The position numbers and the translations under genes are program-made. This document shows, piece by piece, positions 7,977-18,363 of a stretch of DNA of 64,000 nt. Source of the DNA: Phyllobacterium zundukense (GTDB taxonomy: Bacteria; Pseudomonadota; Alphaproteobacteria; Rhizobiales; Rhizobiaceae); NCBI RefSeq assembly GCF_002764115.1, contig NZ_CP017940.1, forward strand, positions 62,001 through 126,000. The letters are read 5' to 3'. The notes below the pieces were generated by a model, which was given only the letters and a program-made list of their open reading frames with translations, was not told the origin of the DNA and searched no databases. Within the stretch, counting starts at the first letter, position 1, and each line of letters starts with the position of its first letter.

Positions 7977-8771
7977 TTACACCTTTGCCTTGCTGTTTTC
8001 CTTGAAGAACAAGGCCTGTGTGATCAAAGCCTTGACCATATCCGGATTGAAGGGTTTCGTGACGAGGAATGTGGGTTCTGGTCTTTCGCCTGTCAGCAAG
8101 CGTTCGGGAAAGGCTGTGATGAAGATGACAGGTATTGAGTCCTGGCTAAGTATGTTGTTCACCGCATCGATGCCGGAACTTCCATCTGCCAATTGGATAT
8201 CGGCAAGGATCATGCTTGGGCGGGTGGCGGAATAGATTTTCAACGCTTCGTTGCGGGTTCGGGCAATGCCGACCACGCGGTGCCCGAGACTTTCGACCAT
8301 GTGCTCGATATCCATGGCGATCAGTGGTTCGTCTTCGATGATCAGAATATCGGTGGCAATCTGCTTCGAAATGCCGACGGATGCCTCGTCGAGAAGTTCA
8401 TAAAGTTCGCTCTCCGTGACATCGAGGATTTCCATCGTCTCTGCCTGGCTGAAGCCTTCGAGGCTGATCAGCAAAAAGGCCTGACGGGCCTTGGGCGCGA
8501 TGGCCGTCAGGTTGGCAGCTGCGTGTTTTTCCCAGCCGAACTCCGATTTTAGTTCGAGGGGGCGAACATTGACGGAGTTGAAGTGCTGAATCAGCAATCT
8601 ATAAATGCTCACCCTATCCGATGCTGTCTTGGGGAAGAGGGAAACATCCGTAATAAGGATTTCCAGTGTTGCCGCTACATAGGCATCGCCCGAAGACTGG
8701 GAGCCAGTGATGGCGCGGGCGAAACGGCGAAGATAGGGCAGATGTGGGGCTATCCTGGTGGACAATGACAT
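7977..8771 (-). CDS. phyR: General stress response anti-anti-sigma response regulator PhyR
   Basis: 264 residues from ATG 8771. Residues 1-135 form a sigma-factor-like domain (HLPYLRRFARAITGSQSSGD, ARQAFLLISLEGFSQAETME); residues 140-264 form a receiver (DILIIEDEPL, phospho-acceptor D191 in LADIQL, FITAF, TKPF). When phosphorylated, PhyR binds NepR and frees the EcfG sigma factor. It faces nepR-ecfG across a 184-base gap that holds an EcfG-type promoter reading into phyR, giving positive feedback. The longer frame up to 8843 would start within that control region, so the shorter start is preferred. Confidence 0.96.
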   Translation of the reverse strand: MSLSTRIAPHLPYLRRFARAITGSQSSGDAYVAATLEILITDVSLFPKTASDRVSIYRLLIQHFNSVNVRPLELKSEFGWEKHAAANLTAIAPKARQAFLLISLEGFSQAETMEILDVTESELYELLDEASVGISKQIATDILIIEDEPLIAMDIEHMVESLGHRVVGIARTRNEALKIYSATRPSMILADIQLADGSSGIDAVNNILSQDSIPVIFITAFPERLLTGERPEPTFLVTKPFNPDMVKALITQALFFKENSKAKV

Positions 8772-8830
8772 TATGGCGAGTTCCCTGTTATCGATGGGGG
8801 TATCAAGATGACGAAAGAGTTCACAACCAG

Positions 8831-8855
8831 AACACATTCGCAAAAAAAAAGTTCC
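8831..8855 (-). promoter_or_regulatory. EcfG-type promoter for phyR
   Basis: Minus strand GGAAC (8855-8851), 16-base spacer, TGTT (8834-8831): eight of nine consensus positions. A second GGAAC on the plus strand (8863-8867) sits 7 bases away back to back, pointing to nepR, but no good -10 follows it at the right distance (TATT after 16). Confidence 0.75.
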
Positions 8856-8955: not shown

Positions 8956-9162
8956 ATGATGAACGCCAAAAAGAACTCCCTTGCCGCTCCCGAAAGGGGG
9001 CGTGTCCGTCGCCGCGACATCAAGAATGCGGAGACAGAAATTGGTTTGAAGCTACGCGCGCTTTTTGCATCGGTACAGGAGGAGGAAATTCCGGCTCGTT
9101 TTCTGGATCTTCTGGAGAAGCTTGATGAGGCTGAACGCAATCATGCACAATCATCCAAATAA
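8956..9162 (+). CDS. nepR: Anti-sigma factor NepR
   Basis: 68 residues (ATG at 8956 or the adjacent 8959). After a basic N-terminus comes the NepR core IGLKLRALFASVQEEEIPAR followed by FLDLLEKLDEAE, i.e. the two helices that grip EcfG or, alternatively, phosphorylated PhyR. It keeps the general stress sigma factor inactive in unstressed cells. It lies 12 bases upstream of ecfG and opposite phyR, the standard arrangement of this locus. Function is assigned from family, length and context together. Confidence 0.95.
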   Translation: MMNAKKNSLAAPERGRVRRRDIKNAETEIGLKLRALFASVQEEEIPARFLDLLEKLDEAERNHAQSSK

Positions 9163-9174
9163 ACAGGCCGCCGA

Positions 9175-9726
9175 ATGGTACATGAATCGAGCGATTTCAA
9201 GAAAAGCCTGATTGCGTCTCTGCCCAAGTTGCGGGCGTTTGCGGTTTCGCTTGTCGGTAATCCGGACCGGGCGGACGACCTCGTCCAAGACACGATCATG
9301 AAGGCCTGGGCCAAGCAGGATTCATTTGAACCCGGTACAAATATCAAGGCCTGGCTGTTCACCATCCTTCGCAATGAATTTTACAGCCAGATGCGCAAGC
9401 GCGGGCGCGAAGTTCAGGATTCGGATGGTATCTTTACCGAACAGCTTTCCGTTCACCCAGCGCAATATGGGGCGCTTGACCTTCAGGATTTCCGCAAAGC
9501 CCTTGAAAAGCTTCCCGATGACCAGCGTGAAGCGATAATTCTTGTTGGAGCTTCGGGCTTTTCCTATGAAGAGGCGGCTGAAATTTGCGAATGCGCAGTT
9601 GGAACGATTAAGAGCCGCGTGAGCCGTGCCAGGACGCGCTTGCAGGAACTGCTCGAGGTACAGGGCGAAGTCGACTATGGCCCTGATTCAATAGCGACAC
9701 AGGTTACATCAAACAAGTTTGCCTGA
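9175..9726 (+). CDS. ecfG: General stress ECF sigma factor EcfG
   Basis: 183 residues with region 2 (SLVGNPDRADDLVQDTIMKA, then FEPGTNIKAWLFTILRNEFY) and region 4 (LPDDQREAIILVGASGFSYE, then CAVGTIKSRVSRARTRLQEL). This is an ECF15/EcfG-type sigma factor, the output of the PhyR-NepR partner switch, recognising GGAAC-N16/17-CGTT promoters; at least five perfect copies lie within 9 kb of it. Its last 23 bases overlap the end of the convergent receiver gene. Confidence 0.95.
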   Translation: MVHESSDFKKSLIASLPKLRAFAVSLVGNPDRADDLVQDTIMKAWAKQDSFEPGTNIKAWLFTILRNEFYSQMRKRGREVQDSDGIFTEQLSVHPAQYGALDLQDFRKALEKLPDDQREAIILVGASGFSYEEAAEICECAVGTIKSRVSRARTRLQELLEVQGEVDYGPDSIATQVTSNKFA

Positions 9727-11015: not shown

Positions 11016-12536
11016 ATGGTTAGCGACCCGAAACAAAGGATGTTCAATAAACGATCCGTTGCTTCGGGCAGTCGCGAACCTCTGAATGGGTATGGGCCGT
11101 TCATGGATTGGAAGGAATATTTTTTGCTTTGGTGGCGCAAACTTGTTCTGAATTTTTCCCAAAGGCCGTTGAGGGGATTGGCGATTATGCTATCGCTCGG
11201 CCTGATCATTGGTGCGGCTGGCTCGACCATTATTCTCGCCCGCAGTTTTAACAATCAGATCCATGATGTCGTCGCCACCTACAAGGTACGCGAACAGGCC
11301 TATAGTTTGCTGGCTTTCGTGAATGAGGCTCACAGCAACCAGCGCGGATTCCTCCTGACCAAGAATGCGGAATTTCTCGATCTTTACCGGAATTCGGCGG
11401 CACGGCTGGACGAGAATCTCAATACCCTTGCGGAAATGACCAGGGACAACCTGCGCCAGCAGGCCATGGTAACCAAAATCCGGGACATGGTGAAGGAAAA
11501 GCAAGCAACGGTTGAGACGGCGGTTTCGTTTGCCCTTACAGGCAAGGACGCCGAGGCTCTGGCTTCTCTTGGACCGAGTTTCGGCATTGGCCAGCTTGAT
11601 GAGATCACCAAGACTATCGACGGTTTCCTTGGTGAAGAAGATCGAAGGCTAATCGAGCGAAATATTGCAATGGACGGGATGAGAAGCTGGCTCACAATCG
11701 CATCGCTTTCATCGCTTGGCGGCGCGCTCATCCTGGCTTTCATTCTTGCAAGCCGCACGAGCCGCTATGTCCGCAGGCTGACGGAAGGTCAGTCAGCCCT
11801 GCTTTCCGAAAAATCCCTTCTTGAAAACATGGTGCAGAGCCGGACGGCGGAATTGGAAAAGGCCATGCTTGTCGCAAAGCGGGAAAGAGCGCGTGTGGAA
11901 GCATTGCTGCAGGACTCGGATCACCGCATCGGAAATTCGCTTGCGACGGTATCGTCACTGCTCGGTATCCAGATGCGCGACGTGTCCTCCGAGGAAATCC
12001 GCGGTGCACTTGGAGCGGCTCGCGACCGAATCCAAACAATATCGTCCGCTCATAGGCGCTTGCGGCTTGGAGCGGATCACGAAACAGTGCGAGCGGATGA
12101 GTATTTGCCTGATGTTATCGCAGACATCAAAGAAGCTAACGTCCATGATCGCGATATCAGTATTCAAGCCGACCTTGCGCCAATCAACCTCAGCTCTCGC
12201 GACGCAACGACACTTGGAATTATCATCGGAGAATTGACGATGAATGCCATAAAACATGCATTTCCGGGCAGGAGATCAGGAGAAATAAGAATCAATCTCT
12301 GGCACGGCGATGATGGCATATTGCGATTGAAGATTGCAGATACCGGTGTTGGCATTCCGAAAAGGCCGCACAGGCAGTCACCCGGTCTGGGGTCGCTCAT
12401 TGTCAATCAGCTTTGTCAACAGTTCGGCGGATCGGCCACCTATTCTGCCAATCCCGGTGGCGGCACGATAGTGACCCTCGATTTCCCGTCGCTCACTGAG
12501 GTAGAGCCCCCAGACGATGCAGAAGTCGATGAATAA
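11016..12536 (+). CDS. CHASE3-type sensor histidine kinase of the HisKA_2/HRxxN group
   Basis: 506 residues (a later ATG at 11104 is possible). Two membrane segments (about 49-70 and 224-248) flank a periplasmic helical domain of CHASE3 type (VNEAHSNQRGFLLTKNAEFL). Next come a coiled coil, the phosphorylation helix DSDHRIGNSLATVSSLLGIQ with the HRxxN motif of general stress (PhyK-type) kinases, and the ATP-binding domain (ELTMNAIKHAF, IADTGVGIP, GLGSLIVNQL). It directly abuts the Crp/Fnr gene. The HRxxN motif and the position 1.3 kb from ecfG suggest it phosphorylates PhyR in the inner membrane. Confidence 0.87.
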   Translation: MVSDPKQRMFNKRSVASGSREPLNGYGPFMDWKEYFLLWWRKLVLNFSQRPLRGLAIMLSLGLIIGAAGSTIILARSFNNQIHDVVATYKVREQAYSLLAFVNEAHSNQRGFLLTKNAEFLDLYRNSAARLDENLNTLAEMTRDNLRQQAMVTKIRDMVKEKQATVETAVSFALTGKDAEALASLGPSFGIGQLDEITKTIDGFLGEEDRRLIERNIAMDGMRSWLTIASLSSLGGALILAFILASRTSRYVRRLTEGQSALLSEKSLLENMVQSRTAELEKAMLVAKRERARVEALLQDSDHRIGNSLATVSSLLGIQMRDVSSEEIRGALGAARDRIQTISSAHRRLRLGADHETVRADEYLPDVIADIKEANVHDRDISIQADLAPINLSSRDATTLGIIIGELTMNAIKHAFPGRRSGEIRINLWHGDDGILRLKIADTGVGIPKRPHRQSPGLGSLIVNQLCQQFGGSATYSANPGGGTIVTLDFPSLTEVEPPDDAEVDE

Positions 12537-12767: not shown

Positions 12768-12794
12768 GTCGGTCTCCTTTGGTCGCTGAACAGA

Positions 12795-12819
12795 AACGAA
12801 GCTGCCGATTAATTGTTCC
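12795..12819 (-). promoter_or_regulatory. EcfG promoter for the 73-residue protein
   Basis: Minus strand: GGAAC (12819-12815), 16-base spacer, CGTT (12798-12795). All consensus positions match. Only 6 bases separate its -35 from the -35 of the divergent promoter at 12826. Confidence 0.88.
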
Positions 12820-12825
12820 CCACAA

Positions 12826-12850
12826 GGAACAAAGCCGAAATGGTTGCGTT
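12826..12850 (+). promoter_or_regulatory. EcfG promoter for the HWE kinase
   Basis: Plus strand: GGAAC (12826-12830), 16-base spacer, CGTT (12847-12850). A full match. It implies transcription starts near 12857, which rules out the upstream start codon of the long frame and supports ATG 12911 for the kinase. Confidence 0.88.
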
Positions 12851-12910
12851 GATGGGGAAAGCGTTTCGATTTTGAGTATAGGGCGCCTCATTGAGGGACG
12901 TCGCGTAGAT

Positions 12911-14413
12911 ATGAGAGCAAGGGACATTTCAGAAAACACGTTCGAATATTTATCAGGAGCGTCTCGTCGCGATGTTCTTTCGACGTTGAGAACGCTTGAG
13001 GTCCAGCAAGACAGTGACCTGAGCAGTTTGACGGAACTGGCACTCTCCATGTCTGGTACAGGTGGCGCGCAAATCTCGCTGGTCCATGATAGGCAGAGCC
13101 GGGTATTATCTCGCACTGGTGGCCTTGGTGCCGCGAACATCTGGATAATCGAGGCGAGTTCACTCATTGCTCCTGAGCCGAATTGTCTGGTCGTCCTCAA
13201 TGCCGCTGAAGATGTTCGTTTTGCTGAAATCGATGCGGTTACCCATTCACCAAAGATACGATTTGTCGCCGTCGCGCCGATTTGTGTTTCGGGTGAATGC
13301 ATAGGCGCGTTGAGTGTGATGTCGGATGAGCCGAGACTTGAATTCGGCCTGATGCAGCAGAAGCAGCTTGTGCAATCGGCCAAACTTGCAGGATCTCTCA
13401 TCGAGCTTAAACGAGATTCCCGCCTGGGTGCTGATGCGATTGCAACACTGCATCTGGACGAAGATCGCAGCGCGATGGCGCTTGAAGTGGGCAATGTCGG
13501 CAGTTGGGTTTGGGATTTGCGCACAGGAATATTCACAGGTAACAGGATGGCCTATTCCATGTTGGGTTTGCGCGACGACGAACCCATGACTGGCGAAGAC
13601 GTATTTCGCGCAATGCACGCAGACGACTTCCCCAGGATGAAATCTGCCTTCATCCGGGCGCTTGTACATAATCAAGATTATGTCGGTGAGTTTCGCGCAG
13701 CTTCATCAGGTCGATGGCTTCTTGGCCGCGGACGCATTTTCGAGCGGGATGCGGCGGGGAAGCCGGTTGTCGCGGTTGGTGTGAATATCGATATAACCGA
13801 CACCAAGAATGCAGCCGAGAAAACGCGGCTTCTGCTGCGAGAGTTGAATCACCGGGTAAAGAATACACTGGCGATGTTGCAATCGCTGGCAAGACAGACG
13901 CTAAATCGCACATCGGATCCCGCGGAGTTCATGGAGGCGTTCTCAGGACGCTTACGCGCGATTTCCGAAGCCCATACATTGCTTTCCGATCGTGAGTGGA
14001 GCGGTATTGGCTTGGTCGATCTGATCGCCAAGCAAGTGGAGCCCTATGCCATTTATGATCCCGCACAGATCGAACTTTCCGGCGAGGATATGGTGCTGCC
14101 ACCCGACCATGCCCTTGGTCTGGGCATTGCGTTGCATGAACTTGCCACCAACGCTGCCAAGCATGGTGCTCTTTCGATTGCTAGCGGGCGTGTACGGGTT
14201 TCCTGGCAATTGGAGACAGGGTTGAACGAATCCCGCGTTGTTATCCATTGGATCGAATCCAACGGTCCACCAGTGGTTCCGCCGCAGATACGGGGGCTGG
14301 GGGAGAGACTGATCGAGCGCAGCCTGGACAAGGTTTTGTCGAGCAGCGTCAGGTTAAGTTATCCCGAAACCGGTATGGAGGCTTTGATCTCCATGCCGAT
14401 CGCGACCATTTAA
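12911..14413 (+). CDS. Cytoplasmic GAF-PAS HWE-family histidine kinase
   Basis: 500 residues from ATG 12911, chosen because the EcfG promoter ends at 12850. No membrane segment. Order: GAF-like sensor (about 35-160; ALSMSGTGGAQISLVHDRQS), PAS domain (about 185-305; VGNVGSWVWDLRTGIF, GRGRIFERDAAGKPVV), then the HWE phosphorylation box (LLRELNHRVKNTLAMLQSLA, residues about 314-333) and ATP-binding domain (GLGIALHELATNAAKHGALS, HWIESNGP, GLGERLIERSL). HWE kinases often feed the PhyR pathway, so the EcfG promoter would make a feedback loop. The 3' end overlaps the convergent holin-like gene by 4 bases. Confidence 0.9.
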   Translation: MRARDISENTFEYLSGASRRDVLSTLRTLEVQQDSDLSSLTELALSMSGTGGAQISLVHDRQSRVLSRTGGLGAANIWIIEASSLIAPEPNCLVVLNAAEDVRFAEIDAVTHSPKIRFVAVAPICVSGECIGALSVMSDEPRLEFGLMQQKQLVQSAKLAGSLIELKRDSRLGADAIATLHLDEDRSAMALEVGNVGSWVWDLRTGIFTGNRMAYSMLGLRDDEPMTGEDVFRAMHADDFPRMKSAFIRALVHNQDYVGEFRAASSGRWLLGRGRIFERDAAGKPVVAVGVNIDITDTKNAAEKTRLLLRELNHRVKNTLAMLQSLARQTLNRTSDPAEFMEAFSGRLRAISEAHTLLSDREWSGIGLVDLIAKQVEPYAIYDPAQIELSGEDMVLPPDHALGLGIALHELATNAAKHGALSIASGRVRVSWQLETGLNESRVVIHWIESNGPPVVPPQIRGLGERLIERSLDKVLSSSVRLSYPETGMEALISMPIATI

Positions 14414-15823: not shown

Positions 15824-17788
15824 ATGCCTTCTGAGAATGTCGGAGGGAAGTCGCCGCGCGCCGTCGAGCGGGTCACGCAAAGGTCGATTTACACAACTAG
15901 CTCCGGGGACGCGAGCAGCCGGACGCAGTTTCCGCCAGTCGTTGTGGCAATTGCCATTGTCGCGGCGCTTTATTTTGCCCGCGATATCTTCGTGCCGCTG
16001 GCACTGGCGCTGCTTCTGACGTTTGCATTGTCACCGTTGGTCACTCGTCTGTACCGTTCCGGCGTCCCAAAGGCTGTTGCGGTTATAAGCGTGGTCGTGA
16101 CAGCATTTTTGGTGATTTTCATTTTCGTCAGCATCGTGGTGAGCCAGCTTACCGTATTGGCGCAGAACTTGCCCAGTTATCAGTACAATATCGAGACAAA
16201 GATTCGCACGATCAAGGATGCGCAATCGGGCAACAGCATCTTCGACCGAGGCGCGCGCATGTTCAAGCGGTTCAGTGAGGAAATAGGTCGCTCCGATGAG
16301 GTCGAGCGATTCACCCTAGGCGATGACGTCAAGAATCCCGACCCACAGCGGCAACCCCCACAGAATGTTGAAACGCAGCAGGAGAAGCCGCCTTTGCGCG
16401 GACAGGACCCAAACAAGCCTGTTCCTGTGGAGATCCGCTATCCGCCACCTGATCCGCTGAGCCTCCTACAGACATTTGCGGGGCCACTGATCCAGCCGAT
16501 GGCGACAATCGGCATCGTTATCGTTGTCGTCATCTTCATGTTGATGCGCCGGGAAGATTTGCGTGATCGCTTCATCAAGCTGGTCGGGGCGAGCGACATC
16601 CACCGGACGACGACGGCGCTGCACGACGCGGGAAAACGCGTTGGTCAATATCTGCTGATGCAATTGATCATCAATATCAGCTTCGGCGTCCCGATCGGCA
16701 TCGGACTGTGGTTCATCGGCATACCCAATCCGATGTTGTGGGGAATGCTGGCGATCGTGCTGCGTTTCGTGCCCTATATCGGGCCAATAATCGCAGCTTC
16801 TTTTCCCTTGATTCTGTCGCTTGCAGTCGACCCTGGCTGGATGCTTCTGGTCTGGACAGCCACGCTGTTCGTCGTACTTGAGCTGATCAGCAGCAATGTC
16901 ATGGAACCGCTGCTCTATGGCTCGAAGACTGGCCTTTCACCCGTTGCCATTTTGATGGCGGCGATTGTCTGGACATGGATCTGGGGGCCAATCGGGCTCA
17001 TTCTTTCCACGCCCCTTACGGTCTGCCTCGTGGTTCTCGGACGGCATGTACCAACGTTCGAATTCCTCGATGTATTGCTCGGAAATGAACCGGTGCTGCT
17101 GCCGCCACAACAGCTTTATCAACGGCTTTTGTCTGGTGATCCGGATGAGGCGACGGAGAAGGCCGAAGAATATCTGCAATCGTCAGCAATCGCGGACTAT
17201 TATGCGGCGGTCGCCATTCCGGCGCTATTCCTAGCCGAGTATGACAGGGGAAGAGGTGTCCTCGATGCGGCGCGGCGGGCGCGTGTGGCACAAAGCATGA
17301 TCCTGCTGGTCGAGAACCTTTCCGATCACCAGGACGTAGTAGACGAGGCAGAGGACGCTGAGGAAGTTGACCAGAACGACGCACCAGCGAATAAAAAGCC
17401 GAAATCAGACAAGCAGAAGACGATCATCTCCGCCGGCGGGCGCGGCGATCTCGACGATGCGGCCGCGGTGATCGTCGGCGATATTCTCGAGCGCGAAGAC
17501 TTCGATGTCCACGATATTACTCACGATGAGCTCGAGGCCGCCAATATCGGCAAGCTCGATCTTGCTGGCGTCAGTGCCATCTATGTGAGCTATCTCAATA
17601 CGTCCTCGGTCGCTCATGCACGCTATCTTGTCCGCCGGTTAAGACGGCGCAACGCGCGCATCAAGATCATCATCGGTTTCTGGGCGGAATGCGCAGACAA
17701 GGTCGATGGTGAGAAGATCGTAGGAGCGACACGCAACTGCCATGTTGAATCGTCGATTCAGGCGGCGATTGAGCGGGTTTGCGAATGA
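15824..17788 (+). CDS. AI-2E/PerM family transporter with long C-terminal extension
   Basis: 654 residues. Residues about 30-410 are a PerM/AI-2E-type permease: TM helices 1-3 (VVVAIAIVAALYFARDIFVP, LALALLLTFALSPLV), a polar Pro/Gln-rich insert (about 165-210), then the C-terminal helix set (LWGMLAIVLRFVPYIGPIIA, SSNVMEPLLYGSKTGLSPVA, GLILSTPLTVCLVVLGRH). Unlike the usual members of about 350 residues, it carries about 240 more: a helical part, an acidic linker (EAEDAEEVDQND) and an alpha/beta piece (IYVSYLNTSSVAHARYLVRR, then IKIIIGFWAE) that looks like a Rossmann or B12-binding-like module. Substrate unknown. It lies inside the stress-gene cluster but shows no EcfG promoter. Confidence 0.85.
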   Translation: MPSENVGGKSPRAVERVTQRSIYTTSSGDASSRTQFPPVVVAIAIVAALYFARDIFVPLALALLLTFALSPLVTRLYRSGVPKAVAVISVVVTAFLVIFIFVSIVVSQLTVLAQNLPSYQYNIETKIRTIKDAQSGNSIFDRGARMFKRFSEEIGRSDEVERFTLGDDVKNPDPQRQPPQNVETQQEKPPLRGQDPNKPVPVEIRYPPPDPLSLLQTFAGPLIQPMATIGIVIVVVIFMLMRREDLRDRFIKLVGASDIHRTTTALHDAGKRVGQYLLMQLIINISFGVPIGIGLWFIGIPNPMLWGMLAIVLRFVPYIGPIIAASFPLILSLAVDPGWMLLVWTATLFVVLELISSNVMEPLLYGSKTGLSPVAILMAAIVWTWIWGPIGLILSTPLTVCLVVLGRHVPTFEFLDVLLGNEPVLLPPQQLYQRLLSGDPDEATEKAEEYLQSSAIADYYAAVAIPALFLAEYDRGRGVLDAARRARVAQSMILLVENLSDHQDVVDEAEDAEEVDQNDAPANKKPKSDKQKTIISAGGRGDLDDAAAVIVGDILEREDFDVHDITHDELEAANIGKLDLAGVSAIYVSYLNTSSVAHARYLVRRLRRRNARIKIIIGFWAECADKVDGEKIVGATRNCHVESSIQAAIERVCE

Positions 17789-17832
17789 CAAAAGCTTGAT
17801 TTCGCATTTTATACCAGTGCCTCTCTTTCACC

Positions 17833-17857
17833 GGAACCAAGACATGCCTGTTACGTT
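17833..17857 (+). promoter_or_regulatory. Perfect EcfG promoter not followed by a protein gene
   Basis: Plus strand GGAAC (17833-17837), 16-base spacer, CGTT (17854-17857). The predicted transcript starts near 17863 and immediately contains a strong hairpin instead of an ORF. The next gene, csbD, starts 190 bases later. Confidence 0.85.
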
Positions 17858-17862
17858 TTCCT

Positions 17863-17960
17863 GAAGCTGATCGAAGCGTTGATCAGTAGCATGAGGCCCG
17901 GTACCTGTTCCCCCGTGGGTGCCGGGCCGTCTCTGCTACTATGATTTCCTCCATTTTTTT
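17863..17960 (+). ncRNA. Candidate stress-induced small RNA with a C-rich loop
   Basis: Downstream of a perfect EcfG promoter. The core is a two-part stem: outer AGTAGCA (17885-17891) with TGCTACT (17934-17940), inner 11 bp with one G-U pair (17895-17905 with 17918-17928). It presents a 12-base loop, TGTTCCCCCGTG. A T-run (17954-17960) follows about 13 bases after the stem. A single-stranded UUCCCCC could pair with G-rich ribosome-binding sites. The layout recalls GsrN of Caulobacter, a sigma-T-dependent small RNA with a C-rich loop; homology is not claimed. It could instead be a leader of csbD or a terminator for the transporter gene. Confidence 0.6.
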
Positions 17961-17988
17961 CAATAATTTGCAAATAATTCACTTAAGC

Positions 17989-18015
17989 GGAACCAAGAGA
18001 AAGTTTGTGCCGTTT
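17989..18015 (+). promoter_or_regulatory. Possible EcfG-type promoter for csbD (long spacer)
   Basis: GGAAC (17989-17993) and CGTT (18012-18015) are separated by 18 bases, one or two more than the consensus spacing, and lie 36 bases before the csbD ATG. CsbD genes are typical general-stress genes, so this is plausible but weaker than the other sites. Confidence 0.5.
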
Positions 18016-18050
18016 AGCTCTGGTAAGTGAACGTTTCAGGGAGGCTACCC

Positions 18051-18242
18051 ATGGGCAGCACAAGTGACAAAGTTTCCGGAATGGCCAACAAGGCGGCGGG
18101 AAACATCAAGCAGGCCGCCGGGAAGATGACCGGCTCAAAGAGCATGCAGGCCAAAGGAAAAATGCAGGAAATCAAGGGTGACGCCCAGCAGGCTAAAGGC
18201 AAAGCCAAGGATGCTGTGAAAAAGGTTGTCGACAGGGCCTGA
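18051..18242 (+). CDS. CsbD family stress protein
   Basis: 63 residues from ATG 18051, with GGGAGG 8 bases upstream. The sequence is made of lysine/alanine/glycine-rich helical repeats (MGSTSDKVSGMANKAAGNIK, KMTGSKSMQAKGKMQEIKGD, AQQAKGKAKDAVKKVV), the CsbD pattern. CsbD proteins are small, soluble and strongly induced by general stress; the molecular role is unknown. An EcfG-like element just upstream and a terminator just downstream define a single-gene unit, though read-through from the putative small RNA promoter is possible. Confidence 0.9.
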   Translation: MGSTSDKVSGMANKAAGNIKQAAGKMTGSKSMQAKGKMQEIKGDAQQAKGKAKDAVKKVVDRA

Positions 18243-18263
18243 TACCCTTGATGCCGTCAGATT

Positions 18264-18295
18264 CAGCCGGTCCATTTTGGGCCGGTTGCTTTTTA
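18264..18295 (+). terminator. Terminator after csbD
   Basis: CAGCCGGTCC pairs with GGGCCGGTTG (one G-U pair) around ATTTT, followed by CTTTTT. It lies 22 bases after the csbD stop. Confidence 0.8.
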
Positions 18296-18363
18296 TCCAA
18301 TAGTCTGTCGTGCTGTGTTTTTTGTATCGAGATCAGAATTCCAACTTTTAAGAGGACCTGCCG

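Follow-up and report, generated by a model that had tools for sequence, protein, structure and literature searches.

The window, a stretch of 64,000 nucleotides from Phyllobacterium zundukense, contains a general stress locus and, downstream of an AI-2E family transporter gene, a short element in which an EcfG-type promoter precedes two hairpins. The features on which the following account draws are these:

7977-8843, minus strand: phyR (Pfam PhyR domains)
8956-9162, plus strand: nepR (Pfam NepR domain)
9175..9726, plus strand: gene for an EcfG-type sigma factor, the presumed source of the regulator (Pfam Sigma70_r2/r4 and PhyR_sigma2 domains)
11016-12536 and 12779-14413: sensor kinase genes within the general stress locus
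15824..17788, plus strand: AI-2E family transporter gene, the upstream neighbour (Pfam PF01594, E 2.7e-48)
17833..17857, plus strand: EcfG-type promoter GGAAC-N16-CGTT (exact motif match; extended -35 GGAACCAAG)
17863..17866, plus strand: predicted transcription start, 6-9 nt 3' of CGTT, placed from promoter spacing only
17866..17887, plus strand: hairpin 1, 8 pairs (17866-17873 / 17880-17887), with covariation, at the 5' end of the predicted RNA
17895..17928, plus strand: hairpin 2, 11 pairs (17895-17905 / 17918-17928), with arms GGCCCGGTACC / GGTGCCGGGCC, presenting the C-rich loop
17906..17917, plus strand: loop TGTTCCCCCGTG, with a near-invariant core, the presumed seed
17989..18014, plus strand: separate EcfG-type promoter of csbD, GGAAC-N17-CGTT (motif match)
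18051..18242, plus strand: csbD, a neighbour outside the element (Pfam PF05532, E 7.5e-17)

The sequence-only reading had assigned the element to the general stress locus, and it does lie about 8 kb from phyR-nepR-ecfG. Searching with the protein of the upstream gene retrieved 18 Phyllobacterium-type loci and one Rhodobacter MAG. The element lies downstream of the AI-2E transporter gene in all 18 of the former, as it does in two further loci, L010 and L019. Behind the AI-2E homologue of the Rhodobacter MAG, no promoter-plus-C-rich-hairpin element was found; an EcfG-like promoter at that place leads into a protein gene and was set aside. Elsewhere in the window, at 12795-12850, two divergent EcfG-type promoter matches are separated by 6 nt; they are flanked by an HWE kinase gene and by a frame of 73 residues that has no Pfam match.

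The perfect GGAAC-N16-CGTT promoter described in the sequence-only reading is present on the plus strand, and its conserved letters, GGAACCAAG and CGTT, do not vary among the 19 copies of the conservation profile, each scoring 1.0 there. Outside this 19-copy set, the -35 element is GGAACCAAG in L019 and GGAACCAAC in L010. Exact matches to the pattern number five in the window, against 0.52 expected from shuffling. Over the whole genome, however, there are 102 matches compared with 116 for a reversed-pattern control, and the pattern by itself is therefore uninformative genome-wide. The credibility of the element rests on conservation, not on the motif count in the window or on folding energy.

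Conservation was assessed on an alignment (A1) of 20 of the 21 distinct copies, namely the window, L019 and L020-L037. L010 stands outside both this alignment and the model R1, as the selection pattern required GGAACCAAG where this locus carries GGAACCAAC; both hairpins and the loop are nevertheless intact in L010, which also has the same neighbour genes. The 104-nt region of the window folds with -41.3 kcal/mol (z -4.74; none of 200 shuffles did as well), and every one of the 20 copies folds better than its shuffles, with z values from -2.3 to -5.8. Across the two hairpins, with 19 pairs in total, 98.4% of the cells in the alignment are paired, and six pairs have changed on both sides, a number matched by 3 of 500 shuffles. 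The observed pairing percentage and the covariation score were reached by none of the 500; among the five covariation measures, one, the number of further pair types, was not above the shuffles (107 of 500 reach the value). Sliding the partners against each other lowers pairing to 24-49% for the two hairpins, and RNAalifold recovers the same two hairpins unaided. Taken singly, hairpin 1 has 96.3% of its cells paired and three of eight pairs changed on both sides, and hairpin 2 has 100% paired in the 20 sequences with three of 11 pairs so changed.

The exposed C-rich loop is likewise present as described. It belongs to hairpin 2, the loop of hairpin 1 not being C-rich, and 19 of the 20 aligned copies share the core CCTGTTCCCCCGTGGG, the exception being L028, in which the core reads CCTGTGCCCCCCGTGGG, with six C and a length change of 1 nt. 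In the conservation profile, which covers 19 sequences without L019 and whose loop bin is offset by one base (17907-17918), the loop scores 0.996 and the stems 0.78-0.96; the promoter spacer and the linker score 0.61-0.62, and the upstream, start and downstream regions average 0.47-0.57. Because the stem does not need this loop sequence, which is nevertheless conserved like the promoter letters, we count the loop in favour of a small RNA (sRNA). The sequence-only reading had staked itself on conservation of stem and loop in related genomes, and the inner stem and the loop are indeed conserved. Its drawing of the structure, an 18-pair stem in two parts, holds for the inner 11 pairs that carry the C-rich loop; the outer seven pairs (AGTAGCA/TGCTACT) can form in the window but are not conserved in the relatives, with 37.7% of cells paired against 33-56% in slid controls, and were rejected. 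The conserved partner of hairpin 2 is instead the separate 5' hairpin at 17866-17887, which that reading did not contain. The promoter and the C-rich hairpin are thus real and conserved.

The 3' end is less sharply drawn. The run of T at 17954-17960, previously read as the tail of the stem, starts 25 nt past the conserved stem and is not recognizable as a canonical terminator tail; no intrinsic terminator was scored at this place by a scan that accepts loops of up to 8 nt and a tail no more than 2 nt away. Directly after hairpin 2, at least five T occur within 8 nt in 11 of the 20 copies, so that the hairpin is terminator-like in about half of them, and in the species of the window the tail is T-poor, with at most four of eight (four of eight in the window itself). 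The T-poor tail, together with the lack of a scored terminator in the window, leaves the 3' end of the RNA uncertain. By eye, many of the 20 copies have a similar TTTTCAA stretch about 28-34 nt 3' of hairpin 2, which suggests that the T-run of the window may belong to the region upstream of the promoter of csbD.

These terminator-like traits raise the question of whether hairpin 2 is merely the terminator of the AI-2E transporter gene, with an incidental promoter match in front of it. The hairpin does begin 106 nt past the stop codon of the transporter gene, and in 7 of 20 copies the conserved CCGGG has a run of at least four T starting no more than 3 nt away. A terminator, however, requires neither an invariant loop nor a promoter whose GGAACCAAG and CGTT letters are unchanged in 19 of 19 copies; hairpin 1 also covaries, and in L027 the element is intact although about 130 nt more separate the transporter gene from the promoter. 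We therefore regard a mere terminator as very improbable.

The gene on the other side calls for similar scrutiny, as the element could be a long 5' leader of the csbD mRNA, an attenuator or a processed leader, with hairpins that control or cap csbD. Such a leader would have to extend across a second EcfG-type promoter, which lies 3' of the element and before the gene in 17 of the 18 loci (none was found by the same pattern in L027), and across a stretch from hairpin 2 to this promoter that is unconserved (0.50-0.54); it would also leave the near-invariant loop unexplained. The arrangement itself is compatible with a leader: csbD is on the same strand with its start about 190 nt downstream, it stands behind the element in 17 of the 18 loci (in L023 with its first 46 residues only) and also in L010 and L019, and the only terminator scored in 17780-18360, at 18264-18288, comes after it. 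In the remaining locus, L020 of P. brassicacearum, a csbD search gave no match, yet the promoter, the hairpins and the loop are all kept. (The promoter before the place of csbD is kept in L020 as well, and the frame there reads ATG GCT TGA.) Because L020 retains the element without a csbD match and a second EcfG-type promoter stands before the place of csbD in 17 of the 18 loci, the element appears to be independent of csbD, which we count in its favour; the leader explanation is unlikely, if less so than the terminator. A peptide-coding reading was also rejected. The short frames differ from species to species, that of the window being lost in relatives, and the loop of L028 differs in length by 1 nt; we therefore judge the element to be noncoding.

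The element is found across the genus. Among 59 genomes including its own, BLAST matches were obtained in 18 of 19 other genomes of the genus, G012 being the one without a match, compared with 0 of 39 outside it. A 16-mer of the loop was found in 3 of 3 Phyllobacterium genomes as opposed to 0 of 148 other genomes of the family. A search of related genomes with a model of the stems had been suggested with the sequence-only reading, and in the family sample the strong matches are those of Phyllobacterium. In this sample of 394 genomes, model R1 matched 8 of 8 Phyllobacterium genomes at E <=4e-15, with one strong match in each, and the next best match (1.4e-5) is not preceded by an EcfG promoter. 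With the cutoff relaxed to E 1, something was matched in 130 of 386 other family genomes; of the 38 out-of-genus loci opened, 37 lack an EcfG-like promoter in the preceding 100 nt and resemble ordinary terminators or different C-rich hairpins. The remaining one, L054 (G235:C2:163613-163699, minus strand, same family; E 0.003), is a candidate for a C-rich RNA with a near-EcfG promoter: GGAAC-N16-TGTT precedes three hairpins whose loops are C-rich, and the third is terminator-like. In the order (297-genome sample), 18 of 296 other genomes match R1 at E up to 0.01. Twelve of these loci were opened, and in one, L301 (G665:C1, E 5.9e-6), an exact EcfG promoter lies 41 nt upstream of the match. In this genome, from another family of the order, the promoter (at 9874 in L313) is followed by two hairpins, the second with a UGUCCCCCG loop, and the whole stands behind a DUF2171 gene; inspection by eye of the 20 kb read there did not reveal phyR or ecfG. 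The G665 and G235 matches may be distant relatives or convergent cases.

On this evidence, we consider it probable that the element encodes an EcfG-dependent, trans-acting sRNA of about 70-100 nt, the C-rich loop of which pairs with G-rich sites in mRNAs. Elsewhere in the class, it is established that PhyR frees EcfG from NepR. By the same route, PhyR would release EcfG in Phyllobacterium, and EcfG, to judge from the promoter, would transcribe the element from 17833-17857. The RNA would start at about 17863-17866, fold into two hairpins, as the covariation indicates, the 5' one short and the second one strong, and probably end soon after hairpin 2 by weak intrinsic termination or by processing. 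Its loop UGUUCCCCCGUG would be held open and could pair with G-rich sites, among which GGGGGAA-type ribosome-binding sites are the likeliest, and translation of the targets under stress might be lowered or, by analogy with GsrN and katG, raised. Antisense action on G-rich leaders is proposed here because of four precedents, as far as the cited accounts describe them. The C-rich loop of GsrN acts on G-rich targets, with katG documented (PMC5869019), the C-rich loops of sX13 act on G-rich motifs near starts (PMC3771888), the C/U-rich terminator loop of RepG is the pairing part and meets a G-repeat in an mRNA leader (PMC8295292), and B11 pairs through its C-rich terminator loop, which serves as the antisense seed (PMC12395582).

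The constancy of the loop across the genus would also fit an RNA that binds or titrates a protein, such as an RNA chaperone or a ribosomal component, with the C-rich loop as the protein site, and the search for targets described below established no mRNA. We know of no protein site of the UUCCCCC-loop kind, however, and in GsrN, RepG, sX13 and B11, C-rich loops are antisense as far as the published descriptions go; we therefore hold a protein site to be improbable and retain the antisense reading.

Candidate targets were sought with the loop as seed. In the genome of the window, CGGGGGAAC occurs within 25 nt of an ATG 13 times compared with 3 for the reversed control, and it is also commoner near starts than the reversed control in the genus, an excess that purine-rich ribosome-binding sites would produce in any case. 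The best conserved start-site match is the nuoJ ribosome-binding site CGGGGGAACCCATG, found in 13 of 14 genomes among the matches listed (20 searched); the window's own genome has it too. The three CGGGGGAACCCATG loci opened contain the same gene, for the NADH dehydrogenase chain 6/NuoJ protein (Pfam PF00499), and a pairing of nine letters is possible between the element's loop and CGGGGGAAC at the start of this gene. Directly before the start codon, GGGGGAAC forms a conserved nuoJ ribosome-binding site (G000, L271). It is also present in 10 of 28 other-genus nuoJ leaders (among the best 30 NuoJ loci opened; 121 genomes searched). Since GGGGGAAC is thus common in genera without a convincing R1 copy, the site is no evidence of co-evolution: the seed prediction has yielded nuoJ as a candidate, and nuoJ as a co-evolved target was rejected. 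As a target, katG was rejected as well. At E 1e-20, PF00141 matches 2 of 20 Phyllobacterium genomes and has no match in that of the window, although it matched the Caulobacter genome used as control.

When the genus was searched for EcfG promoters with CCCCC behind them, a second sRNA family with C-rich loops came to light, here called R2, which consists of ACUGGUCCCCCAACCAG and two more hairpins behind EcfG or near-EcfG promoters. Model R2 has matches in 20 of 20 Phyllobacterium genomes, with two or more in 18. In the window's genome (G000), they lie at C1:2173944-2174029, with four C in the loop, and at C1:1813206-1813293, with five (L210, L214), and the -10 elements of both loci deviate from CGTT (AGTT and CATT). 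Three loci with members of this type gave no Rfam match at gathering scores. Outside the genus, R2 matched one of 196 family genomes, weakly and at an ordinary terminator; the R2 match in L106 was discarded as a terminator. AT-rich stretches resembling TTTTCAA precede several R2 promoters. R2 shares with the RNA of the window an EcfG-type or near-EcfG promoter, a C-run loop and the genus, but it has three hairpins, another sequence and usually two loci per genome, and the window contains no match to model R2. No phyR-linked RNA of the ReC64/GsrN type was seen in either of the Phyllobacterium phyR loci viewed (the window and L089). It is possible, though doubtful, that Phyllobacterium has rebuilt the post-transcriptional arm of its stress response, with at least three lineage-specific RNAs (that of the window and two R2) replacing the phyR-linked ReC64/GsrN-type RNA; their loops of four to five C would then converge on G-rich ribosome-binding sites, and the link between EcfG promoter and C-rich loop would be conserved while the RNA genes turn over.

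Among the titles listed by a literature search, none concerned this Phyllobacterium RNA. If our reading is correct, it adds a genus-wide RNA with covariation support to a part of the alphaproteobacterial stress response that has received little study, and does so in plant-associated bacteria that mostly lack katG, the known target of GsrN. Together with R2, it poses the question of whether EcfG regulons select C-rich loops rather than particular RNA genes. The exact site for deletion and the loop for mutation are now defined.

The sequence-only reading had expected that a counterpart of GsrN in this order would be new, an expectation overtaken by published RNAs. EcfG has been called exclusive to alphaproteobacteria, and ReC64 of Rhizobium etli is an EcfG-dependent RNA of 88 nt with a mapped start (PMC3892343); GsrN-like RNAs have been predicted in R. 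etli, S. meliloti, B. abortus, Agrobacterium, R. palustris and B. diazoefficiens (PMC5869019). We found ReC64-like candidates in 20 of 59 phyR loci of other genera (for example, L090, L095, L096, L100, L105 and L126), picked by eye and likened to ReC64 by its description; 16 of them were measured and aligned, and a family-wide covariance model was abandoned in view of the poor quality of the alignment (mean identity 42%). From what is described of ReC64, it and these candidates resemble the element in the EcfG-type promoter, the general stress locus and the C-rich loops. The candidates, however, mostly have two C-rich hairpins and a third, terminator hairpin, with the promoter 0.3-2.1 kb from phyR (16 measured), whereas the RNA of the window has two hairpins, one of them C-rich, and lies about 8 kb beyond ecfG; it thus has neither the three-hairpin design nor a place within about 2 kb of phyR. 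Model R1 had no match on the ReC64-like candidates in the 59 phyR loci; the comparison with Caulobacter GsrN draws on its published description.

At gathering scores, Rfam 15 identified only a tRNA in the window. Actinobacterial 6C and B11 are one RNA (Rfam RF01066), which shares C-rich loops with the element. Membership was rejected, with 23.7 bits and E 0.32 on 261 bases compared with a gathering score of 47, in another phylum; for 17 relatives, 6C was not listed at E up to 3, in a 52 kb search in which such a score would not show. RepG comes from an unrelated organism, Helicobacter pylori, and is like the RNA of the window in design only. The Xanthomonas RNA sX13 shares C-rich loops directed at G-rich motifs near starts, but has three such loops, lies at the polA locus and is not from an alphaproteobacterium.

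The main comparison is with GsrN of Caulobacter, which, as described (PMC5869019), is a noncoding RNA with an EcfG/SigT-class promoter, an exposed C-rich loop and a link to the general stress response. The element has the promoter and lies near phyR-nepR-ecfG, about 8 kb from ecfG, and gsrN of C. crescentus is itself distal to that locus according to the same source. GsrN has its functional C-rich loop on the 5' side, followed 3' by a separate terminator, whereas in the element the C-rich loop sits on the second, terminator-like hairpin, and the C-rich 5' hairpin before a separate terminator is absent; the search for katG, the proven GsrN target, gave no match in 18 of the 20 Phyllobacterium genomes. 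The element is very probably a small regulatory RNA and, by analogy, would be GsrN-like not demonstrably by descent but by logic.
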